The notes under the pieces are model-generated. The model was not told where the DNA came from, did no database searches, and saw only the letters and a list, made by a program, of their open reading frames with translations. This document shows positions 22,206 through 63,480 of a stretch of DNA of 64,000 bases, in pieces (positions within the stretch are counted from its first letter, which is position 1; every line of letters starts with the position of its first letter). The stretch comes from Rhodococcus sp. CH91 (GTDB taxonomy: Bacteria; Actinomycetota; Actinomycetes; Mycobacteriales; Mycobacteriaceae): positions 496,001 through 560,000 of the forward strand of contig NZ_JAKFYR010000001.1 of NCBI RefSeq assembly GCF_022554085.1. The letters are read 5' to 3'. A program made the translations under genes and the position numbers.

Positions 22206-23003
22206 TCAGTCGAGGATGTCGCGGACCTCGGTGTCCTCACGTCCGGCGAGGACGAGCTCCCGTGCCGTGGCCATGTGTTTCTGCCAGTGTGCGAAGGCAC
22301 CCTCGCCGTCGCGCGCACGCAGGAGGCGGATGAGCTTGCGCTGGGAGCGGACGAACAGCCTGTAATGGTCCTCGTACTTCTCCGCGTCGCGCTGCATGCT
22401 CTCGCGTGTGACGTTCGTGGTGTGCCGTTCGTAGATCTCGTGCAGCATCCCGGCGATCAGTGCCAGCGAGGCATTGCCGGCGAGCTGCACCATGCGGAGA
22501 TGGAACAGTGCGGCCGCCTGCCCGAAGGTGCCGTCGGCGAACGACGACGGAATGGTCTCGTCCACGAGACGCTCGAGTTCGTCGAATGCCTCCTCGTTGC
22601 CGGTCTCCGCCAGCAGCCGTGCGGCGGCGGGTTCGACGGCCTCCCGCGCGACGTAGACGTCCGAGACGGTGGCGCCGGCGAGTTCGAGCAGCAGGGAGGC
22701 CGGCCGGGCCACGACCTCGGGACCCGGGACGCAGATGCGTGCGCCCGATCGCGATCCGCGACGTACCTCGACGAGCCGCTCGGCCTCGAGGACACGGACC
22801 GCTTCGCGCAGCGTCGGCCGGCTCACCGAGAAGTGCTCCATGAGCGACGCCTCGTGCGGAAGGTGGTCGCCGTCCTTCAGTTCCCCGTCGATGATCATCC
22901 GGCGAAGTTTGCGGGCCACCAGTTCGGCGGTCTTCGGGGTCCGGATCGCTCGACCCCCCAGGGAACGGGCGTCGAATCCGGGTGCCAACACTTCGTCGCT
23001 CAC
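22206..23003 (-). CDS. FadR-subfamily GntR transcriptional regulator
   Basis: A 265-residue regulator; the GTG at 23003 is chosen because GGAGG lies just upstream on the minus strand, although the frame stays open to 23201. The N-terminal winged helix reads LPHEASLMEHFSVSRPTLRE AVRVLE in GntR order, and the C-terminal FCD sensor domain has FHLRMVQLAGN and a final helix DGEGAFAHWQKHM with a metal-type His. It is divergent from the acyl-CoA island beginning at 23182, with palindromes in the gap, so it is the best local candidate to control that island in response to an acyl-CoA or organic acid. Confidence 0.87.
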   Translation of the reverse strand: MSDEVLAPGFDARSLGGRAIRTPKTAELVARKLRRMIIDGELKDGDHLPHEASLMEHFSVSRPTLREAVRVLEAERLVEVRRGSRSGARICVPGPEVVARPASLLLELAGATVSDVYVAREAVEPAAARLLAETGNEEAFDELERLVDETIPSSFADGTFGQAAALFHLRMVQLAGNASLALIAGMLHEIYERHTTNVTRESMQRDAEKYEDHYRLFVRSQRKLIRLLRARDGEGAFAHWQKHMATARELVLAGREDTEVRDILD

Positions 23004-51636: not shown

Positions 51637-54366
51637 TCAACCTCGATTCTGTTGCCGGAACTTCGCGGCGAGCTCGCTGCGCGAGCGGATGCCGAATTTC
51701 GAGTACACGCGGGTCAGGTGGTACTGCACCGTCTTGACGGACAGGAACAGTTCACCGGCGACCTCCTTGTTGGTATGGCCCGCCGCGACGAGTGTGGCCA
51801 CCGCACGTTCCTGCGGAGTGAGCGTCGAGGCCGTACGGTCGTTGCCGGTGTCGTCGTCTCCGGCACGGAGTCCGCCGGCTTTGAGTTCCCGGTCGCACCG
51901 TTCGACGTACGAGGTAGCACCGAGCGACGAATACAGTTCGCGCGCAGTGCGTATCACCGCATCGGCGTCACGCCGGCGTCCTGCGCGGCGCAAGGTCTGA
52001 CCGTAGGCGAAATTGATACGCGCACGGTCGTAGGGCAGCGGCAGCGTGTCGATATCGTCGAGTGCCTTCTCGAAGGCATCGCCGGCGGCGTCGAGGTCGC
52101 CCCGTGCGCCGTGGATACGGCCGCGGACACAACCGAGGCGTGCCCCGGCGGATCGGTGACCGCGTGCTGCAGCGAGTTCCTCGTGCGGACGGAGAAATTC
52201 GTCGGCATCGTCGACCCGCCCGGTGAGCACGAGAGCGTTGCCGTACAGATCCGGCCACGGCCAGTGTCCGGGCTCGTCGATCGCACCCCGATCACGCATG
52301 GTGACGATCGGCTGCAGGTAGCGCAGCACGCTCGTGTAGTCCGATGCGACGTCGGCGCACTGTGCCAGACACAGGCAGGCCGGTACGAGCATCAGCGAAT
52401 AGTCGTTGTTCCCGGCGCGAGCCCGATGCGCGTGCTCGCGCGCTGCGTCCCAGTTCCCGCGCAGTGCGTGGACCTGGGCTCCGGTCCAGTGGACGAGAGG
52501 CCGCAGCAGGTCGAGTTGCGTCGTCTCGAGTTGTGCCGCAGCGCGATCCACGGTCAGGAGGGCATCCGACCACGCACCGAGTGCGAACTGCGTTCGTGCG
52601 AGCCACGCCTGCGCCCAGAGAGAGATGCGCAGCGATCCTCCCCGATAGGCGGTCGGTTCTGCCGCCTCGAGTTCGGCTCGCGCGAGATCGGGGCGGTCGC
52701 AGGTCAGCGCGAGCCATCCTTCGGCCATGCGGATGCGCTGACCCTGCGCGCCGAGCCTGATGTTGTCGGACAGTGCGGCGTACGACTCCATCGCCTCGTC
52801 GATACGACCGGTCATCGCCAGTCCGAGTCCGCGGATGGCCTGTGATTCGACGACGGGGGGAGCGGTGTCCGGAAGAGAACCCGACGCCCGGTCGGCCCAC
52901 AGGACGAGGTCGTCCCCGCGCAGGCGGGCCAGCGAATGCAGCACCAGGCGTTGCGAAACGGTTGCAGCGAGTTCGGGTTCGGTGCCCGGGTCGTCGATCA
53001 TCGACCAGGCCTCGGTGAGCAGGCGGTGGGCTTCGGCTGCTCGTCCCTTCTGGAGCGCGAGGTATCCCAGCACCGCGTTGCGCACCGGCCCGCTGGGCAC
53101 ACTCTCGATTTCCGGTACGAATGCCTGGGCCTGAGGCAGATCCGCAGCGCCCGTCAGTGCATCGACCCCGCGGATCATCCTGAGCGACCGTGCATCCCGG
53201 TCGAGGGTGATGCGGCTCGCGGTGATCAATGCCTCGGCTGCCTGTGACCATGCGCCGTCGGCGGCGCAGCGGCGGGCATAGGAGTCGAGACGGGCAGCGA
53301 GTTCTTCGTTCCCGGTGGGAGTCGCGGAGACGAGATGGAACAGTGCGGCGCCCTCGTCGTCGACGAGTGACGCGGCCCGCGCGTGGAGGCTGTGCCAGCG
53401 TGCCGGGCCGATCAGATCGGCGACGGCGGCACCGGTCATCGGATCCGGGAACGACAGCGACACCACGCCGCGTTGTTCCCGGACCGTGAGAAGTCCGAGT
53501 CGATGGGCTTCGTCGAGCGGTGCGGTGGGGTCACCGAGTTCGGCGAGTTCGGCGACGAGCGGCAGCGTTTCGGCCGAATCCCGCACGGCGGCGGTGGTCA
53601 GCGCGGCCACGGCTTCGACGAGCGCCCGGGTGTCCGGCGAGCATCGGGACAGGATGCGGCCCACTCGTGCGGCGTGCTGCTTCGTCGCGGGGAAGCGTGC
53701 CTGCCACCGATACCATTCGGCGCGCGGGATCTCGTCGAGGAGTTGCAGGGCCGAACGGGGATTGCCGAGGGTGTGTTCCTGCAACCGGCGCGCGGTCCAC
53801 GCCGACAAGCCGACACCGGTGCGGCCCAGGGCGAGTTGCGTGATGTCGGTCGGTGTCAGGGGACCGAGGCGAACGGTGTCCATGCGGTGGCTGCCCGCGA
53901 GAAGTTCCACCGTCGCCTGGTCCACGTCGTCGGGAAGGACGTCCGGCACGATCCAGACCATGAGAAGAGGCCGCCCCTGCGCCCGCCGAATCGAGGACGA
54001 GAGTGCCTGCAGCGACTCGATATCCGCGTAGTGCGCATCGTCGACGGCGACGAGGGCGGCCGTCCCGGCGAGGCGGTCGAGGAAGATGTGCGCCGCGTCC
54101 ACCGGTTCGTCCGCCGAGACGGATTCGCCGAGAAGCTGTTCGAGCACGGACCAGGGGCGGCCGGCCTCCCACCGGGCACCGGAGGCGATGTGCACGGTCA
54201 GGTCGTCGTGGCCGGCGGCGAAGTGTGTCACCAGGGAGGATTTTCCGATCCCGGCCGCGCCCTCGACGAGGGCGAGCACGGGATTTCCTGTTCGCGCCTC
54301 GTCGAGAAGGCGTGTCAGGTGCAGTAACTCCGAGTTCCGGCCGATCAGCACAGTAGTGTCCGTCAC
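51637..54366 (-). CDS. benR: LuxR-type large ATP-binding regulator of the ben genes
   Basis: A 909-residue LAL-type regulator. The GTG at 54366 overlaps the benK stop (GTGA), although the frame stays open further upstream. The N-terminus has Walker A GAAGIGKSSL (36-45) and ALVAVDDAHYAD as Walker B; the middle is TPR-like helices; the C-terminus is a LuxR HTH, LTPQERAVATLVAAGHTNKE followed by VAGELFLSVKTVQYHL. Position between benK and benE matches the LuxR-type BenR that activates benABCDKE in C. glutamicum. It probably activates the ben promoter in the presence of benzoate. Confidence 0.85.
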   Translation of the reverse strand: MTDTTVLIGRNSELLHLTRLLDEARTGNPVLALVEGAAGIGKSSLVTHFAAGHDDLTVHIASGARWEAGRPWSVLEQLLGESVSADEPVDAAHIFLDRLAGTAALVAVDDAHYADIESLQALSSSIRRAQGRPLLMVWIVPDVLPDDVDQATVELLAGSHRMDTVRLGPLTPTDITQLALGRTGVGLSAWTARRLQEHTLGNPRSALQLLDEIPRAEWYRWQARFPATKQHAARVGRILSRCSPDTRALVEAVAALTTAAVRDSAETLPLVAELAELGDPTAPLDEAHRLGLLTVREQRGVVSLSFPDPMTGAAVADLIGPARWHSLHARAASLVDDEGAALFHLVSATPTGNEELAARLDSYARRCAADGAWSQAAEALITASRITLDRDARSLRMIRGVDALTGAADLPQAQAFVPEIESVPSGPVRNAVLGYLALQKGRAAEAHRLLTEAWSMIDDPGTEPELAATVSQRLVLHSLARLRGDDLVLWADRASGSLPDTAPPVVESQAIRGLGLAMTGRIDEAMESYAALSDNIRLGAQGQRIRMAEGWLALTCDRPDLARAELEAAEPTAYRGGSLRISLWAQAWLARTQFALGAWSDALLTVDRAAAQLETTQLDLLRPLVHWTGAQVHALRGNWDAAREHAHRARAGNNDYSLMLVPACLCLAQCADVASDYTSVLRYLQPIVTMRDRGAIDEPGHWPWPDLYGNALVLTGRVDDADEFLRPHEELAAARGHRSAGARLGCVRGRIHGARGDLDAAGDAFEKALDDIDTLPLPYDRARINFAYGQTLRRAGRRRDADAVIRTARELYSSLGATSYVERCDRELKAGGLRAGDDDTGNDRTASTLTPQERAVATLVAAGHTNKEVAGELFLSVKTVQYHLTRVYSKFGIRSRSELAAKFRQQNRG

Positions 54367-55706
54367 GCGTCCACGGTAGTCGGCGAGGGTGCTCCGGAAC
54401 TGCGGGTCGACGTGGCTTCGGTGACCGGACGGGGCACGAAGTAGGTGACCAGCCCGCCGGCGAGGGCGATTCCCGCGAAGATGTGGAAATTGATGTTGTT
54501 CGCGAGGCCCGCACCGATGAGCAGACCGCCGATGACCGGTCCGACGATGCCGCCGAGCCGGCCGAAGCCGGCACACCACGCGACACCTGCGCCGCGCGCA
54601 GGGGTGTCGTAGTAGTTGGACACGAAACCGTAGATGAGCACCTGTGTGCCGATCGTGCCGACACCGGCGACCGCCACCGCGGCGAGCAGTACCGGGAGCG
54701 GGAACCCGAGAGTGAGCAGCACCAGGGCCACCGCGGCGAGGAAGAAGGTGGTGACGATGACCGACCGAGGGCCGCGCCTGTCCGCGACCTTCGAGGCGAG
54801 CAGGCCTCCGAGGATGGCTCCGCCGTTGAGGACGAGCAGGAAGGCCAGGGACCCGTCGGCGTTGTACCCGGTGTCGGCCATGATCTTGGGAAGCCACGTG
54901 TTGAGGCCGTAGGTGAGAAGCAGACCTGCGAAGCTCATCATGCCGAGCAGTGAGGTGCCGAGCGCGTATCTGCGGGTGGCGAGTGCTGCGAATCCGATCT
55001 TCTCGGCCGGGGCGGCAGGCGCCGTCGACGGTAGCGGGAAGCCGAACTTCGTGCACACGGCCCGGGCTTCGTCGACGCGTCCTCGCGATTGCAGCCAGGC
55101 CGGCGATTCGGGGAGCTTGACCAGCGCCAGCGGAAGCAGGACGACGAGCGGCAGCGCGCCGATCAGGAACAGCCCCCGCCAGCCGATGGCGTCGCGCAGC
55201 AGAATGGCGAGCAGGGACGCCATGACACCGCCTGCCGGGACACCGCTGTAGACGATGGCGTTGAAGAGATTGCGCTTGCCGGGAGGAGCGAACTCGGCGA
55301 CCACGGCACCGGCGGTGGCGACCAGACCGCCGACACCGATGCCGGTGAAGAAGCGGAGTGCGCCGAACGCCGTGATGCTCGTGGCGAAGGCAGCCGCGCC
55401 CATGCCGACCGAGAACCAGACGATGTTGAGCAGCATCATCTTCCGGCGGCCGACGCGGTCGCCGAAGGCGCCGGTCAGCAGCGCGCCGACCATGACCCCG
55501 ATGAGGGCGTAGGAGCCGAGCGCACCGCCCTGCTGGGCGGAGATCTCACCGAGCTGGCTCGGATCGGCCATCAGAGTGGGAAGGACGGTGCCGTAGACGA
55601 CGAGGTCGTAGCCGTCGAAGATGATCGCGACGGTGGCGAGGGCGACGATCCAGATGACACTGCGCTTGTGTTGCGGACTTGCCCAGGTCTGCGTGGCATC
55701 GGTCAT
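54363..55706 (-). CDS. benK: Benzoate MFS transporter
   Basis: A 447-residue major facilitator protein of the aromatic acid:H+ symporter family with 12 predicted helices. IFDGYDLVVYGTVLPTLM carries the DGYD motif of helix 1 needed in PcaK/BenK, and GDRVGRRKMML is the loop 2-3 MFS signature. The ATG at 55706 lies about 100 bases after benD, beyond a strong terminator hairpin, so it likely has its own promoter or read-through control. It overlaps benR by four bases. Confidence 0.9.
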   Translation of the reverse strand: MTDATQTWASPQHKRSVIWIVALATVAIIFDGYDLVVYGTVLPTLMADPSQLGEISAQQGGALGSYALIGVMVGALLTGAFGDRVGRRKMMLLNIVWFSVGMGAAAFATSITAFGALRFFTGIGVGGLVATAGAVVAEFAPPGKRNLFNAIVYSGVPAGGVMASLLAILLRDAIGWRGLFLIGALPLVVLLPLALVKLPESPAWLQSRGRVDEARAVCTKFGFPLPSTAPAAPAEKIGFAALATRRYALGTSLLGMMSFAGLLLTYGLNTWLPKIMADTGYNADGSLAFLLVLNGGAILGGLLASKVADRRGPRSVIVTTFFLAAVALVLLTLGFPLPVLLAAVAVAGVGTIGTQVLIYGFVSNYYDTPARGAGVAWCAGFGRLGGIVGPVIGGLLIGAGLANNINFHIFAGIALAGGLVTYFVPRPVTEATSTRSSGAPSPTTVDA

Positions 55707-55804: not shown

Positions 55805-56602
55805 TCAGCCCAGATCGCCTCCGGCGACGGGCAGGACTGTGCCGGTGATGTACGAGGCCTCCTCGGAAGCCAGAAAGCAGATCGCGGCGGCCTGTTCCTC
55901 GAGCGTGCCGTACCGCGCGAGCAGCGAGGAACCGACGGTTTGGTCCACGATCTGCTGGTACCAGATTTTCTCCTGCTCGGTCTGCGGGGACGGGCCACGA
56001 GCGATTCGCCGCTCCGGTGCGGCGGTGCCGCCCGGGGCAGTGGCCACCACGCGGATCCCGTAGGGCGCCAGTTCTAAGGCGAGCGATGCGGTGATCGCGT
56101 TGACGCCGCCCTTCGCTGCCGAATACGGGACGCGGTTGATGCCGCGCGTGGCAACCGACGAGACGTTCACGATCGTTCCGGCACGTCGCTCGATCAGGTA
56201 CGGAGCCGCGGCACGACACGTCCACAGCGTGGGGAAGAGCGAGCGCCGGATCTCCTTCTCGATCTCCTCGGGCGCGTAATGCTCGTACGGCTTCGCCCAG
56301 ATCGTTCCACCGACGACGTTGACGAGCACGTCGATGCGGCCGGTGGTTCCGATCGCGTACGAGACCGCCTCGTCCGCACCCTCGAAGGTCTCCAGATCCG
56401 CGGTCACCGAATGGGCCTTACCGCCGGAGTCGCGCAGTCTCCCGGCGACCTCGTGCACCAGTTCCGAGCGGTCGACGAGCACCACCTCGCCACCCTCGGC
56501 GGCGATCCGTGTCGCGACTTCGAGGCCGATGCCCTGCGCGGCCCCCGTGATCGTCAGGCACCGACCGCCGAACCGGCCGGGAAAGATCCTCGTACCGGTC
56601 AT
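55805..56602 (-). CDS. benD: Benzoate cis-diol dehydrogenase
   Basis: A 265-residue SDR. The ATG at 56602 overlaps the benC stop (ATGA). TGAAQGIGLEVA is the coenzyme motif, with VLVDRS (Asp, NAD preference), NVSSVATRG the catalytic Ser region and YSAAK the Tyr-Lys pair. It oxidises the cis-1,2-dihydrodiol of benzoate (1,6-dihydroxycyclohexa-2,4-diene-1-carboxylate) with loss of CO2 to catechol. Position after benABC makes the assignment firm. Confidence 0.93.
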   Translation of the reverse strand: MTGTRIFPGRFGGRCLTITGAAQGIGLEVATRIAAEGGEVVLVDRSELVHEVAGRLRDSGGKAHSVTADLETFEGADEAVSYAIGTTGRIDVLVNVVGGTIWAKPYEHYAPEEIEKEIRRSLFPTLWTCRAAAPYLIERRAGTIVNVSSVATRGINRVPYSAAKGGVNAITASLALELAPYGIRVVATAPGGTAAPERRIARGPSPQTEQEKIWYQQIVDQTVGSSLLARYGTLEEQAAAICFLASEEASYITGTVLPVAGGDLG

Positions 56603-58218
56603 GCGGACACACCTGCCGTGACCGTGCCGGCGATCGCCCGGCGCATCGTCTCCTTGGCGTGGCGGGAGTGCGCGACGATCAGATCGCGCGCGGTGGCCTT
56701 GTCGCCCTTCTCGAATGCCTCGACCAGCTGGAGGTGCTCGTCGACGATATGCTCCTCGATCCACTGCGCGTCGCGCAGGACCTGCTTCATCAGCCGGGTG
56801 ACCTCGAGCTTGTCGTAGGCCTCGAGCAGCACGGGGTTGGTGCAGCAGCGGAAGAGGAACTCGTGGAAGGCCGCGTTGGTGTCGGTGAACACCGCAGCGT
56901 CGGTGAAGTGATCACCTTCGACCGAGACACCGGACGCCTCGGCGAGGATCCGGAACTCGACGAGCTGCTCGGGGGTGAGCCGGCCGATGGTCAGTTCGAC
57001 GACGCCGAGCTCGAGAGCCATGCGGGCATCGAACTGCTCGTCCGATTCGGCGACGGGCGGATGCTCTTCGCCGATCTCGTAGTTGCCGGGAGCCGGGTTC
57101 TCCAGCGCCACCGGGCGGCCGGTCTCCGCGGCAGCCTTCTCCGCAGCGGCCTTCTCTGCGTCCGTCGCCACCGGTGCGGTCGCTCCGCCCGGAGTCGCAG
57201 AGGTGTTGAACTTCTCGAAGTAGAAGTTCGCCGGATCGATATCGTTCTCGGACAGGTGGTTACGGACGGATTCCACCATGGGCGGGGGACCGCACAGGTA
57301 GATGTCGACATCCCCGTCGTTGAAGTGCGACGGCTCGAACAGACCTGTCACGTATCCGGTGTTGGGTGCGGACGACGACTCGTCGGCGACGCAGTAGTCG
57401 AACGTGAAGTTCGGCAGACGCTTCGTGTACTCCTCGAGCGTGTCGAGTTCGACGAGATCGTGGTCGAAGGTGACACCGTAGATCAGGTGCACCGGATGAT
57501 CGGACCCGTCGGCCTCGATCTTCGACAGGATCGACAGCAGCGGCGCAAGGCCGGTGCCGCCGGCGAGCAACAGCGACGGGCGCTTGCGCTCGCGCAGGAA
57601 GAAGCTACCGAAGGGGCCGGTGAACTCGAGGGTGTCGCCGACCTGCGCGCGGTCGCGCAGGTACTCCGACATCAGACCACCTTCGGTGATCTTCACCAGG
57701 AAGCCCAGCGAGTTCTCGTGCGGGCCGGTGCTGAACGAGTACGAACGGGTCGTCGGCCTGCCGGTACCGTCGTCGCTGCCCGGTACGCCGATGTTGACGT
57801 ACTGGCCGGGCAGGAACACCAGGTCGTCGCGGTTGCCGATCTCCACCGTGAACCCCACGACGCTCTCGGAGTAGCGGCGCAGATCGGTGATGGTCGCCGT
57901 GTACGTGACGGCCGCGGTCTTCGCGACCGCGGAGGTGCTCGCGATCTGCAGCACCAGGTCCGATTCCGGTGTCATCTGGCACGGAAGACAGTAGCCCTTC
58001 TCGGCCTCGTCGTCGGTGAGCGCATCCTCGATGTAGTCGCCGCCGTCGTAACTGCCCGATTCGCAGAATGCCTTGCAGGTTCCGCACGCACCGTCGCGGC
58101 AGTCGAGCGGGATGTTGATGCGAGCCTTGTACGAGGCGTCGGCGACGGTCTCGTTCGGCTTGACCTCGATGAAGCGGGTGACCCCGTCCTCGAAGCTCAA
58201 TGCCACCTGATATGTCAT
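56599..58218 (-). CDS. benC: Benzoate dioxygenase reductase fused to a C-terminal FCD domain
   Basis: A 539-residue protein; usual BenC is about 340. Residues 1-95 are a plant-type 2Fe-2S ferredoxin (Cys40, Cys45, Cys48, Cys80), 105-210 an FAD domain (RSYSFST), 215-340 an NADH domain (GGTGLAPLLS, CGPPPM). After an Ala/Glu-rich linker (about 345-385), residues 395-535 form an FCD domain, the sensor of GntR-family regulators, with Asn448, His452 (NAAFHEF), His495 (DEHLQL), Asp506 and His517 in the metal-ligand pattern. No HTH is present. The reductase moves electrons from NADH to BenAB. The FCD domain may sense benzoate, muconate or a related acid and gate the reductase, or act as a dimerisation module; this is inference. 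Confidence 0.9.
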   Translation of the reverse strand: MTYQVALSFEDGVTRFIEVKPNETVADASYKARINIPLDCRDGACGTCKAFCESGSYDGGDYIEDALTDDEAEKGYCLPCQMTPESDLVLQIASTSAVAKTAAVTYTATITDLRRYSESVVGFTVEIGNRDDLVFLPGQYVNIGVPGSDDGTGRPTTRSYSFSTGPHENSLGFLVKITEGGLMSEYLRDRAQVGDTLEFTGPFGSFFLRERKRPSLLLAGGTGLAPLLSILSKIEADGSDHPVHLIYGVTFDHDLVELDTLEEYTKRLPNFTFDYCVADESSSAPNTGYVTGLFEPSHFNDGDVDIYLCGPPPMVESVRNHLSENDIDPANFYFEKFNTSATPGGATAPVATDAEKAAAEKAAAETGRPVALENPAPGNYEIGEEHPPVAESDEQFDARMALELGVVELTIGRLTPEQLVEFRILAEASGVSVEGDHFTDAAVFTDTNAAFHEFLFRCCTNPVLLEAYDKLEVTRLMKQVLRDAQWIEEHIVDEHLQLVEAFEKGDKATARDLIVAHSRHAKETMRRAIAGTVTAGVSA

Positions 58219-58250: not shown

Positions 58251-58754
58251 CTAGACGACGTAGACGTCGACGATGTGGTGGATGTAATCGTTCTTCAGCA
58301 CGATCTTCTTCTTCTTGATGACCGGCTGCGCACCCGAGACGTCGAGCGTGAGGAAGGTCGTTCCGAAGTAGGTGTCGGTGGTGTTGTACCGGAAGTACAA
58401 CGAGAACCAGTTGTGGCGCAGGTCGATCTCGGTGCCGCGACGCTCGAGGATCTCGACGTTGGTGATGTTGTGACCGGTGCGTGGTTCGGGCAGCGAGGTT
58501 GCCGACGATCGGTCGGTACGGATGCGGAACACGCGGTCTTCGAGGCCACCGCGGTTCGGGTAGTAGATCAGCGAGATCTCGGTCTGCGGGTTCTCCGTGA
58601 GCTCACCGTCGTCGTCCCAGGCCGGCATCCAGTATTCGGCGTCGGGGTGGTAGCAGTCGAGCCACTTCTCGAACTCGCGGTCGTCGAGCAGTCGTGCCTC
58701 TCGGTAGAGGAACTGTTCGATGTCGGTCTGCGTGAATTCGTGTACGGCAGTCAT
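58251..58754 (-). CDS. benB: Benzoate 1,2-dioxygenase small (beta) subunit
   Basis: A 167-residue ring-hydroxylating dioxygenase beta subunit. IEQFLYREARLLDDREFEKW and WLDCYHPDAEYWMPAW are diagnostic for the family, as is the KKKIVLKNDYIHHIVDVYVV C-terminus. It supports the trimer of the terminal oxygenase with BenA. Sixteen bases separate it from benA; benC follows 32 bases later. Length is normal. Confidence 0.93.
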   Translation of the reverse strand: MTAVHEFTQTDIEQFLYREARLLDDREFEKWLDCYHPDAEYWMPAWDDDGELTENPQTEISLIYYPNRGGLEDRVFRIRTDRSSATSLPEPRTGHNITNVEILERRGTEIDLRHNWFSLYFRYNTTDTYFGTTFLTLDVSGAQPVIKKKKIVLKNDYIHHIVDVYVV

Positions 58755-58769
58755 GATTCGACATTCCTC

Positions 58770-60176
58770 TCAGATCAGTGCGGACGAGCCGGACCGGGAC
58801 TGTTCTGCCGCAGCGGGATCGGCTGCGGACTGTTCTGCCGCGACTGCATCGCGCATCGTCTCGAGCCAGTAACCGTGCTGGATGGGATACAGGCCTTCGT
58901 CCTCGGTCTTCACCCCGCTCGACAGCACCTTCGTCATACCGAGATCCTTCGCGACCTCGTCGGGCCCGTCGAGGACGTGGGTCGCGCCGCGGCTCATGTC
59001 GTTCCAGGGAGCGGCCGTGGCGAGATAGGTCTTCTGGCAGGAGCGGAACTCCTCGAGATCGTCCGGGGTGGCCATGCCGGTCGCGTTGAAGAAGTCCTCG
59101 TACTGGCGGATCCGATTGGCGCGGGCCTCGGGGCTCTCACCCTTGGGGGCGATGCAGTAGATCGTCACCTCGGTCTTGTCCACGGCGACCGGACGGAAGT
59201 GCCGGATCTGCGACGAGAACTGGTCCATGATGTAGACGTTCGGGTAGAGGCACAGGTTGCGCGACGCCCCGACCATGAATTCGGCTTTCTTCTCGCCGAA
59301 TTCCTTCGCCAGCTCGTCCTTTCGCGGGTACAGCGGTCGATCTTCGGGGTTGCCCCACCACATCCACAGCAGCAGGTGACCGTGATCGAACGAGTAGTAG
59401 CCGCCGCCCTGCTTGCCCCAGGTACCGGCGTCCATCGCCTTGGTCTCGTTGGAGGACTCACCCGCCGTGCGGCGTGCGGTGGTCGCGGCGTAGTTCCAGT
59501 GGGTGGCCGAGACGTGGTAACCGTCGGCGCCGTTCTCCGCCTGCAGCTTCCAGTTGCCGTCGTAGGTGTAGGTGGACGAGCCGCGCAACACCTCCAGCCC
59601 CTCGGGGGATTGGTCGACGAGCATGTCGATCATCTTCGTGGTGTCGCCGAGATGCTCTTCGAGCGACTTGACGTCGGGTTCGAGGCTGCCGAACAGGAAT
59701 CCGCGGTAGCTCTCGAAACGGGCGACCTTCCGCAGGTCGTGGCTGCCGTCGGTGTTGAACTGCTCGGGGTATCCGGCATCACGCGGATCCTTGACCTTCA
59801 ACAGCTTTCCGTTGTTGCGGAACGTCCAGCCGTGGAAGGGACATGTGAAGGTCGCCCGATTGTCCGTCTTGCGACGGCACAGCATCGCACCGCGGTGACT
59901 GCACGCGTTGATCAGGCAGTGCAGCTCACCGTCCTTGTCGCGCGTGATGACGACGGGTTGCCGTCCGATGTGGGTCGTGAAGTAGTCGCCGGCATTCGGG
60001 AGCTGGCTCTCGTGCGCGAGATACACCCAGTTGCCCTCGAAGATGTACTTCATCTCGAGTTCGAAGATCTCTTCGTCGGTGAAGACGTCGCGGCGGATCT
60101 GGTACCGCCCGGTTGCCGGGTCTTCGACGAGAGCGCCGTCGAGTCGAGCGCGCACGTGCTCCGCGATGTCGGTCAT
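58770..60176 (-). CDS. benA: Benzoate 1,2-dioxygenase large (alpha) subunit
   Basis: A 468-residue Rieske oxygenase alpha subunit. The ATG at 60176 follows GGAGG-type sequence; the frame is open further. The Rieske ligands are Cys92, His94 (CSHRG), Cys112 and His115 (CPFHGW). The mononuclear iron site is in [14 protein letters not shown] with the bridging Asp. It adds O2 to benzoate to give the cis-diol. First gene of benABCD; a 239-base gap with palindromic elements precedes it. Confidence 0.94.
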
Positions 60177-60415: not shown

Positions 60416-61213
60416 TCAGCGGCGGCGGTAGCCGAGTTCGATGCTGAGTCGCTCCGCGCAGTCCGTCACTCGCTTCGCGGCGAGATCGCGGAACGAGGCG
60501 GGGGTGTGCCGGCCGGTCGACGTCGAACACGCCAGTACACCGACCGCGTACCCGGAAGGATCGAAGACGGGCGCGGCGATCGAGATGAGTCCGTCCTCGA
60601 GTTCTGCGGCGGTGATGGCGTAACCGCGAGTGCGGACCTCGGCCAGTTCGGTGCGCAGGTCGTCCGGGTTGTCGATGGTGGCGCTCGTGAGCCGGTCGAA
60701 GCGGGTCTCGTCGAGTACGCGATCGACCACCTCGGATGGCGCCCATGCCAGCAGTGCGCGGCCCATGGAGGTCGCGTAGGCCGGCACCCGGGTGCCGACG
60801 GAGACGTTGATGCTCATGATCCGGCGTACCGGAACGCGAGCGGCGTAGACGACTTCGGTGCCGTCGAGAACTCCGAGCGATGCGGATTCGGTGGTGTGCT
60901 CCGCGATCTCCACGAGCCTGGGCAGCGCGGAGTCCACGAGGGCATGGGACTCGGTGTAGTGCCGGCCGATGCTCAGCACACGGGGAGTGAGAGACCATCG
61001 CGTTCCGCGGGAGGTGACGTAGCCGAGTTTCTGCAGGGTGAGCAGGATCCGCCGGACCGCCGGGCGCGACAGGCCGGTCTTGGCGGCGAGTTCGGCGAGC
61101 GTGGGATTCGGATCCTTGTCGTCGAAGGCGTGCAATACCGCAAAACCGCGTTCGATGCTCTGAATGAAGTCACGGTCGTTACCTGGGCTGTTCCCTGGTT
61201 CGATCTCCGGCAT
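60416..61213 (-). CDS. catR: IclR family regulator of the catechol genes
   Basis: A 265-residue IclR regulator; the ATG at 61213 has AGGAGG four bases upstream, though the frame is open to 61483. The N-terminal winged helix is SIERGFAVLHAF then PTLAELAAKTGLSRPAVRRI, and the effector domain has GRALLAWAP and a C-terminal FDPSGYAVGVL. It is divergent from catA, as is the IclR-type CatR of Rhodococcus erythropolis, which controls catABC. Muconate is the probable effector by analogy. A 17-base palindrome lies in the gap. Confidence 0.88.
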   Translation of the reverse strand: MPEIEPGNSPGNDRDFIQSIERGFAVLHAFDDKDPNPTLAELAAKTGLSRPAVRRILLTLQKLGYVTSRGTRWSLTPRVLSIGRHYTESHALVDSALPRLVEIAEHTTESASLGVLDGTEVVYAARVPVRRIMSINVSVGTRVPAYATSMGRALLAWAPSEVVDRVLDETRFDRLTSATIDNPDDLRTELAEVRTRGYAITAAELEDGLISIAAPVFDPSGYAVGVLACSTSTGRHTPASFRDLAAKRVTDCAERLSIELGYRRR

Positions 61214-61268: not shown

Positions 61269-62249
<981 letters not shown>

Positions 62250-62352: not shown

Positions 62353-63480
62353 ATGTCCGACCCCGGTCTGAAGATCGCGTCCGTCACCACGACGATCATC
62401 GACGTCCCGTTGATCCGGCCGCACAAGTTCGCCACCACCACCTCGGAGACGCAACCGATCCTGCTCGTCGCCGTGACCACGAAAGACGGTGTCACCGGTT
62501 ACGGTGAGGGTGTCGTGCCGGGGGGACCGTGGTGGGGCGGCGAATCGGTGGAGACGATGCAGCAGATCGTCGATCGCTACATCGGCCCCTACATCATCGG
62601 GCGCGGCGTCGACGAAATCAGCGGTGTCATGGTCGATATCGAGCGCATCGTCGCGAACGCGCGGTTCGCCAAGGCCGCAGTGGACGTCGCGATGCACGAC
62701 GCCTGGGCGCGCAGCCTCGGCATCCCGGTCGCATCGCTGCTGGGGGGGATCTTCCGCACCGGTGTCGACGTGCGCTGGGCGCTCGGCGCTGCACCGCTCG
62801 AGGAGATCGTCGACGAGGTCACGCACAAGCGCGAACAGCGCCTGAATTTCAGCTTCAAACTCAAGATGGGTGCGCTCGATCCCGCTGTCGACACCGACCG
62901 TGTCGTCAGGATCGTCGAAGCGTTCGACGGCGAGGTCGGCTTCAGCATCGACGTCAACGCGCGCTGGGATCGGTTCACCGCGCTGCGCTACGTCCCGCAG
63001 CTCGTCGAGGGCGGAGTCGAGCTCATCGAACAGCCCACGCCCGCAGATCAACTGGATGTTCTCGCCGAGATCAACCGTCGCATTCCCGCGCCGGTCATGG
63101 CCGACGAATCCGTTCGGACCCCCCACGACGCGTACGAGGTCGCCAGGCTCGGCGCCGCCGATGTCGTGGCGCTCAAGACCACCAAGTGCGGGGGATTGCA
63201 ACGCAGCAAGCAGGTGGTCGCCGTGGCGAAGGCCGCCGGCCTGCGCTGCCACGGGGCCACCTCGATCGAAGGCCCCATCGGCACCGCCGCCTCCGTGCAC
63301 TTCGCGTGCTCCGAGCCGGGCATCGACCACGGCACCGAACTGTTCGGGCCGCAGCTGTTCGCCGTCGAACTGCTGCAGAAGCCCCTCGAGTACGCCGAAG
63401 GGCAGGTGCATCTGCCCGAAGGGCCGGGCCTCGGCGTCGAACTGGACATGGACGTCGTGCGGAAGTACGCGCGGTCCTGA
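62353..63480 (+). CDS. catB: Muconate cycloisomerase
   Basis: A 375-residue enolase-superfamily enzyme starting at an ATG. The catalytic KxK is in FSFKLKMG, and the three metal acids are in SIDVNARW, ELIEQPTP and MADESV; the opposite-side Lys is in VALKTTKCGG. It cyclises cis,cis-muconate to muconolactone, with Mn2+. It lies between catA and catC in the usual order. Length is normal for actinobacterial CatB. Confidence 0.93.
   Translation: MSDPGLKIASVTTTIIDVPLIRPHKFATTTSETQPILLVAVTTKDGVTGYGEGVVPGGPWWGGESVETMQQIVDRYIGPYIIGRGVDEISGVMVDIERIVANARFAKAAVDVAMHDAWARSLGIPVASLLGGIFRTGVDVRWALGAAPLEEIVDEVTHKREQRLNFSFKLKMGALDPAVDTDRVVRIVEAFDGEVGFSIDVNARWDRFTALRYVPQLVEGGVELIEQPTPADQLDVLAEINRRIPAPVMADESVRTPHDAYEVARLGAADVVALKTTKCGGLQRSKQVVAVAKAAGLRCHGATSIEGPIGTAASVHFACSEPGIDHGTELFGPQLFAVELLQKPLEYAEGQVHLPEGPGLGVELDMDVVRKYARS

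Follow-up and report, generated by a model that had tools for sequence, protein, structure and literature searches.

The window, a stretch of 64,000 nucleotides from Rhodococcus sp. CH91, carries a ben/cat gene cluster in which the ben genes follow the order benA-benB-benC-benD. The third of these genes, benC, encodes a benzoate 1,2-dioxygenase reductase extended at its C-terminus by an FCD domain. Beyond benD lie genes for an MFS transporter and a LuxR-type regulator, and the opposite flank of the ben genes is occupied by an IclR/PcaR-type regulator, catA and catB. The features are as follows.

51637..54366, minus strand: regulator with AAA_16 and LuxR-type (GerE) domains, start chosen at GTG
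54363..55706, minus strand: MFS transporter in the place of benK (Pfam)
55805..56602, minus strand: benD, cis-diol dehydrogenase, its ATG overlapping the benC stop codon (ATGA)
56599..58218, minus strand: benC-FCD, benzoate 1,2-dioxygenase reductase with C-terminal FCD domain, 539 aa
57205..58218, minus strand: BenC part (residues 1-338), with [2Fe-2S], FAD and NAD domains
57043..57204, minus strand: linker (residues 339-392), of low model confidence
56665..57033, minus strand: FCD domain (residues 396-518), from Pfam, fold and profile searches
58251..58754, minus strand: benB (TIGR03232)
58770..60176, minus strand: benA, start chosen at MTDIAEHV
60416..61213, minus strand: IclR/PcaR-type regulator, start chosen
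61398..62249, plus strand: catA, catechol 1,2-dioxygenase, start chosen
62353..63480, plus strand: catB, muconate cycloisomerase family

Domain composition of the BenC-FCD protein

The benC-FCD reading frame runs for 539 codons, from an ATG preceded by GGAGG to a TGA stop codon. Pfam resolves it into Fer2 (residues 10-84), FAD_binding_6 (109-206), NAD_binding_1 (217-319) and FCD (PF07729, 396-518), the last scoring 65.7 bits against a Pfam cut-off of 24.3, and the NCBIfam equivalog for BenC, NF040810, matches residues 3-339 with 495.4 bits (cut-off 430). C40, C45, C48, C80, R158/Y160/S161 and G220-P226 of the reductase are unchanged in 33 of 33 aligned rows. A sequence-only reading of this locus had proposed a complete BenC at residues 1-340 and, behind it, an FCD domain at about residues 395-535. 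The matches from both databases, the reductase motifs and the presence of benA, benB and benD alongside bear out this domain order, and a fold search agrees, assigning the extension to the all-helical FCD fold shared with FadR-type GntR regulators. Pfam and structure comparisons, suggested in that reading as a check that might return no FCD match, thus yielded both the match and the fold. A chance match to helical sequence is ruled out by the Pfam score, the fold search and the conservation of the ligand positions described below.

The same reading had noted the absence of an HTH, and Pfam indeed finds no match to the GntR HTH (PF00392) in the protein up to an E-value of 1. The protein is not a GntR regulator as defined by an N-terminal winged HTH (PF00392), and a surviving HTH or DNA-binding role was rejected because no GntR match was found. 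Given the missing HTH and the two other regulators encoded in the cluster, the usual role in transcription is unlikely. A second FCD locus lies within the window at about 22269-22661, on a GntR-type frame; the genome holds 14 FCD loci, of which the others, in readable frames, look like ordinary GntR regulators.

The model of the full-length protein has a mean pLDDT of 77.7 and a pTM of 0.61, with residues 338-352 and 365-391 below a pLDDT of 50; since this affects much of the linker, contact between the BenC and FCD parts is not confidently predicted. Among PDB sequences, a broader FCD profile (A3) retrieved 11 distinct matches, all of them named regulators or repressors. A narrow profile (A2) retrieved only the designed-looking repeat protein 7rdr (E 1.5e-4), in a match of which no single stretch is significant alone.

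Pocket residues and selection

According to the accessible text of the structural reports, the metal ligands of the PS5454 FCD are Asn144, His148, His192 and His214 (PMC7674646), a carboxylate-binding arginine is present in CitO (R97) and DgoR (R102), and the metal helps FCDs to bind small carboxylates, among them citrate and galactonate (PMC7674646, PMC4746285). The corresponding codons in benC-FCD are the following.

57022..57024, minus strand: R399, which appears to align with the carboxylate-binding Arg of CitO and DgoR
56875..56877, minus strand: N448, metal-ligand position, equivalent to PS5454 Asn144
56863..56865, minus strand: H452, metal-ligand position, equivalent to PS5454 His148
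56734..56736, minus strand: H495, metal-ligand position, equivalent to PS5454 His192
56668..56670, minus strand: H517, metal-ligand position, equivalent to PS5454 His214

The spacing of the metal-ligand positions is 4/43/22 in benC-FCD and 4/44/22 in PS5454. Across 125 non-redundant BenC-type FCDs, which span two phyla, H452, H495 and H517 are each invariant (125/125), position 448 is Asn in 121 and Thr in 4, and position 399 is Arg in 121 and Leu in 4. Five metal-ligand positions had been proposed from the sequence; these four stand, and the fifth, D506, was dropped, as it is no ligand in the structures as described in the available parts of PMC7674646 and PMC4746285. Its conservation (Asp in 119 of the 125 FCDs, Asn in 6) presumably has another reason.

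By its median dN/dS (0.085), the FCD is held as tightly as BenC (0.10) across 14 overlapping Rhodococcus gene pairs, with a value above that of BenC in 4 of them; the linker is looser, its median being 0.23 over 13 pairs.

Distribution of the fusion

A genome scan yielded 52 loci. The FCD is present on all 21 Rhodococcus loci among them, ruling out a recent sequencing or ORF artefact; at the other 31, blastp at 1e-4 finds no FCD. The family survey is one sample of 401 genomes, with at most three candidates per genome scored in the listed matches, and it contains 133 listed BenC loci at E 1e-100 or better; 99 of these were fetched and 34 (genus codes g1 and g24) were judged by matches reaching residue 530 or beyond. 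The search for other BenC-FCD fusions that the sequence-only reading had recommended thereby finds the FCD in 124 of the 133 listed loci, and in 124 of the 129 with a readable 3′ end, the remaining four (g4) stopping at contig ends. The 124 loci comprise the 34 of g1 and g24, in which the FCD occurs without a fused BenD, 12 (g3, g4) with a separate BenD and 78 in which BenD is fused behind the FCD. Two further fusions lie outside the family: BenC-FCD-BenD in another family of the same order (L232) and BenC-FCD in another order (L233). A Tsukamurella plasmid (L244) carries a triple fusion of 860 aa annotated as benC.

Five family loci (L132, L134, L135, L229, L230) are devoid of the FCD, with BenD separate in each. 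In L132, the BenC is 91% identical to that of the window and ends shortly past the reductase, followed by benD. At the four g4 loci with unreadable 3′ ends (L174, L178, L191, L203), benC breaks off at the contig end within the linker, and two of their genomes (G266, G280) have an FCD match on a separate contig; the linker repeats of g4 benC genes may break assemblies. The classified family loci are those at E 1e-100 or better plus four at 34-36% identity. These four (L231, L234, L235, L241; g29) encode a BenC/AntC-like reductase with several hundred additional in-frame residues; the extension of L231, about 500 residues long, has no Pfam match up to 0.001 and resembles an FAD-dependent enzyme in appearance.

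Fusions with BenD, cytochrome P450 and flavin reductase

All 79 triple fusions (the 78 family loci and L232) retain the [2Fe-2S] cysteine and FAD patterns. The NAD pattern reads GGTGVAP in three of them and GGTGLAP in the other 76. BenD has its Tyr-x3-Lys in 79/79, as YSxxK in 59 and as YAAAK or YGAAK in 20. Their BenC-to-FCD linkers span 90-186 aa (e.g. L164:2893-5640, L232:2707-5589) and repeat a motif like ARxIAGQxxxP. The pattern [RK]x[IVL]A[GR]Q occurs in 70 of the 79 linkers, with at least two copies in 50 of them and 133 copies in total, compared to a mean of 0.11 copies in shuffled linkers; the other nine contain near variants, recognized by eye only. This motif may dock the triple-fusion protein on the dioxygenase. 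In L229 and L230, which lie within the triple-fusion part of the tree, the FCD-less BenC ends in one copy (ARCIAGQLVF); there, the motif has survived the loss of the FCD. The linkers of L176, L185, L187, L198, L199 and L202 (g4) measure 142-213 aa and contain another repeat, like ARPVGYxPP, about three times.

Five Paraburkholderia plasmid records (L242, L243, L245, L246, L247) encode a protein whose match to the BenC-FCD of the window, at 46.7-48.3%, covers residues 1-529 or more. In 5/5, Pfam identifies Fer2, FAD, NAD, FCD and cytochrome P450 in a single ORF, which in L242 is 929 aa long, and the spacing between reductase and FCD is only about 20 residues. L242 is the sole annotated record, and the annotation of the 11.5 kb examined there includes neither benA nor benB. 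By their domain content, these BenC-FCD-P450 proteins are candidate self-sufficient P450s with an N-terminal reductase. A search with the Paraburkholderia FCD against 398 genomes from the phylum of an Azospirillum returned 0 matches at 1e-12, which is uninformative as the set holds no known positive.

FCDs also occur on flavin reductases, in 3 of 12 matching genomes from a 396-genome phylum sample and in two more proteins elsewhere. Pfam detects Flavin_Reduct and FCD in all five (L236-L240). Between these domains, only L237 has a GntR HTH that clears its cut-off (36.3 bits). The HTH scores of L239 (24.8 bits), L240 (19.6) and L238 (15.7) fall short of it, and in L236 the HTH was not found (Pfam at 0.001). 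L240 lacks two of the three metal-position histidines, and L237 adjoins an HpaB-like oxygenase, with a score below the HpaB cut-off. The series gives the impression of a sensor retained while DNA binding fades, and L236-L240 may represent intermediates between a regulator and an enzyme-borne sensor.

Phylogenetic history

The FCD tree was built on 70 chosen rows and the BenC-part tree on 51. In the former, 43 BenC-FCDs form one clade (96/83), joined by three Paraburkholderia FCDs at 97/95, and the reductase-attached FCDs, including the five from flavin reductases, group at 89/89; outside them fall the 19 stand-alone GntR FCDs, mostly picked by likeness to the window FCD. The 25 BenC-FCD-BenD forms, L232 among them, constitute one clade (100/97). 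The branching order is unsure because long branches meet, including two flavin reductase rows.

Among the FCD-less rows of the BenC tree, L132 is sister to the window BenC (100/96), L134 groups with L013 (99/89), L229 and L230 group with L218 inside the triple-fusion part (100/97), L032 and L034 group with g3 rows (94/79), and L135 falls near Rhodococcus (89/85). FCD presence requires six changes on this tree, a count that alone can not separate gain from loss. Nesting of the FCD-less rows, together with the single clade of the BenC FCDs, leads us to infer from these sequences one gain and about five losses as the probable history.

Interpretation

A working BenC joined to an HTH-less GntR-type FCD that gates, upon ligand binding, NADH oxidation or the encounter with the oxygenase is, with a probability of roughly one half, the best explanation of the observations above: the fused domain and its fold, the conservation of the metal-ligand and arginine positions, the spread and the losses. 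BenC would pass electrons from NADH through FAD and [2Fe-2S] to BenAB, the dioxygenase. A divalent metal held by the FCD would in turn bind a pathway carboxylate, with benzoate as the first guess and cis,cis-muconate as the second, and the domain would probably dimerize as regulator FCDs do. Its ligand state may then alter the rate at which the reductase oxidizes NADH or meets the oxygenase. By analogy with the reductase of Acinetobacter p-hydroxyphenylacetate 3-hydroxylase (HPAH), the acid-bound FCD might release or speed BenC; electron flow would then be largely confined to times when the acid is there, and oxygen would consume less NADH in vain. The polypeptides of many relatives also include, joined through the FCD, BenD, whose reaction returns NADH.

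That the pocket is invariant, the HTH missing and this FCD branch found repeatedly on NADH reductases suggests an action on the reductase. The gating reading also draws on the low median dN/dS of the FCD and on the short reductase-FCD spacing in the Paraburkholderia P450 fusions. A carboxylate sensor, specifically, is made more likely by the metal histidines invariant in 125 FCDs, the presence of the branch on two kinds of NADH reductase and the HPAH precedent. Against it weigh the approximately five apparent losses, one in the close relative L132, the Leu399 and Thr448 variants (4/125 each), the two histidines missing from L240, the four gene pairs in which FCD dN/dS is above that of BenC, and the lack of a confident BenC-FCD contact in the model. 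Since the FCD was apparently lost repeatedly while BenC stayed, it would not be needed for electron transfer and would instead tune it.

FCDs of GntR proteins dimerize, and the main rival, which we consider rather unlikely overall and strongest for the BenD-fused forms, holds that the domain is kept as a scaffold for dimerization and spacing, making BenC a dimer and, in many genera, tying it to BenD for the reuse of NADH, with any bound metal being structural. The single BenC-FCD-BenD ORF at 78 of the 133 listed family loci speaks for it, as do the single clade of 25 such FCDs (L232 included), the long linkers with repeated short motifs and the retention of the reductase and BenD patterns in 79/79. 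However, the FCD lacks a fused BenD at 34 g1/g24 and 12 g3/g4 loci (BenD being separate in 12/12), the third part in Paraburkholderia is a P450, and the metal and arginine positions, unneeded for spacing, are among the most conserved. A feedback brake, in which the FCD responds to a late product (muconate or a TCA acid) by slowing BenC once ring cleavage backs up, would suit the metal-assisted binding of small carboxylates by FCDs and the adjoining catA and catB, but the P450-type and flavin reductase relatives lie outside the benzoate pathway and would need other ligands; we regard it as improbable. The inferred losses would also be expected of a neutral, functionless relic of a broken regulator. 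Low dN/dS, pocket residues invariant over two phyla and retention at 124 of 129 readable family loci make that very hard to accept.

Ligand gating of BenC by the FCD, the preferred reading, extends tentatively, and at odds well below even, to a distinct FCD branch that would control NADH reductases instead of DNA in a ligand-gated manner, occurring on BenC in Rhodococcus and relatives, between BenC and BenD in a self-contained, NADH-recycling protein with dioxygenase-docking linker motifs, between a BenC-type reductase and a P450 in Paraburkholderia, and on flavin reductases with a fading DNA-binding part. The window benC-FCD is the simplest BenC form of that proposed branch. The regulation of aromatic catabolism has mostly been described at the level of transcription. 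The present results suggest that tuning of the benzoate pathway may occur directly on the enzyme as well as through its genes. Were the FCD to gate BenC, a metabolite would control a Rieske dioxygenase system at the electron-supply step, and coupling and NADH loss would be affected in strains for bioremediation or muconate production. The natural forms with FCD, without it, fused to BenD and fused to P450 make gating testable with few purified proteins.

Comparison with known systems

The fusion itself is already in print. In Gordonia alkanivorans YC-RL2, benC and benD were reported in 2019 as fused with an FCD characteristic of GntR regulators (PMC6362181); this is the same kind of protein plus BenD, which is a separate gene in the window, and the accessible text calls that FCD C-terminal, whereas the triple fusions analyzed here have it between BenC and BenD. 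The benC of a toluene-degrading Rhodococcus is labelled 'FCD domain-containing protein' (PMC11858498), and the accessible portions of both papers propose no enzyme-level role for the FCD. A literature search covering few subscription papers revealed no further recognizable mention of the BenC-FCD fusion and none of the P450 form; as far as it shows, the breadth of the fusion, the single FCD branch, the losses and the P450 form are new.

The BenC of known structure (1KRH) has 337 residues and ends after the reductase, whereas the window BenC continues into an FCD. In PS5454 (3C7J), TM0439, CitO and DgoR, a winged HTH precedes the FCD and the proteins act on DNA; in benC-FCD a reductase takes its place. 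GcoAB, a P450 system without an FCD, consists of two proteins, the reductase GcoB (5OGX) and the P450, whereas the Paraburkholderia proteins combine reductase, FCD and P450 in one chain. The reductase C1 of Acinetobacter baumannii HPAH likewise uses NADH to serve an aromatic oxygenase and carries at its C-terminus a domain derived from a regulator. It is a functional analogue only, built from the unrelated parts of a flavin reductase (PF01613) and a MarR-type domain, neither of which is among the Pfam matches of benC-FCD. In C1, according to the accessible text of the reviews, the MarR-like domain inhibits and binding of 4-HPA relieves the inhibition, with at least 30-fold better flavin reduction (PMC10816480, PMC6165268).
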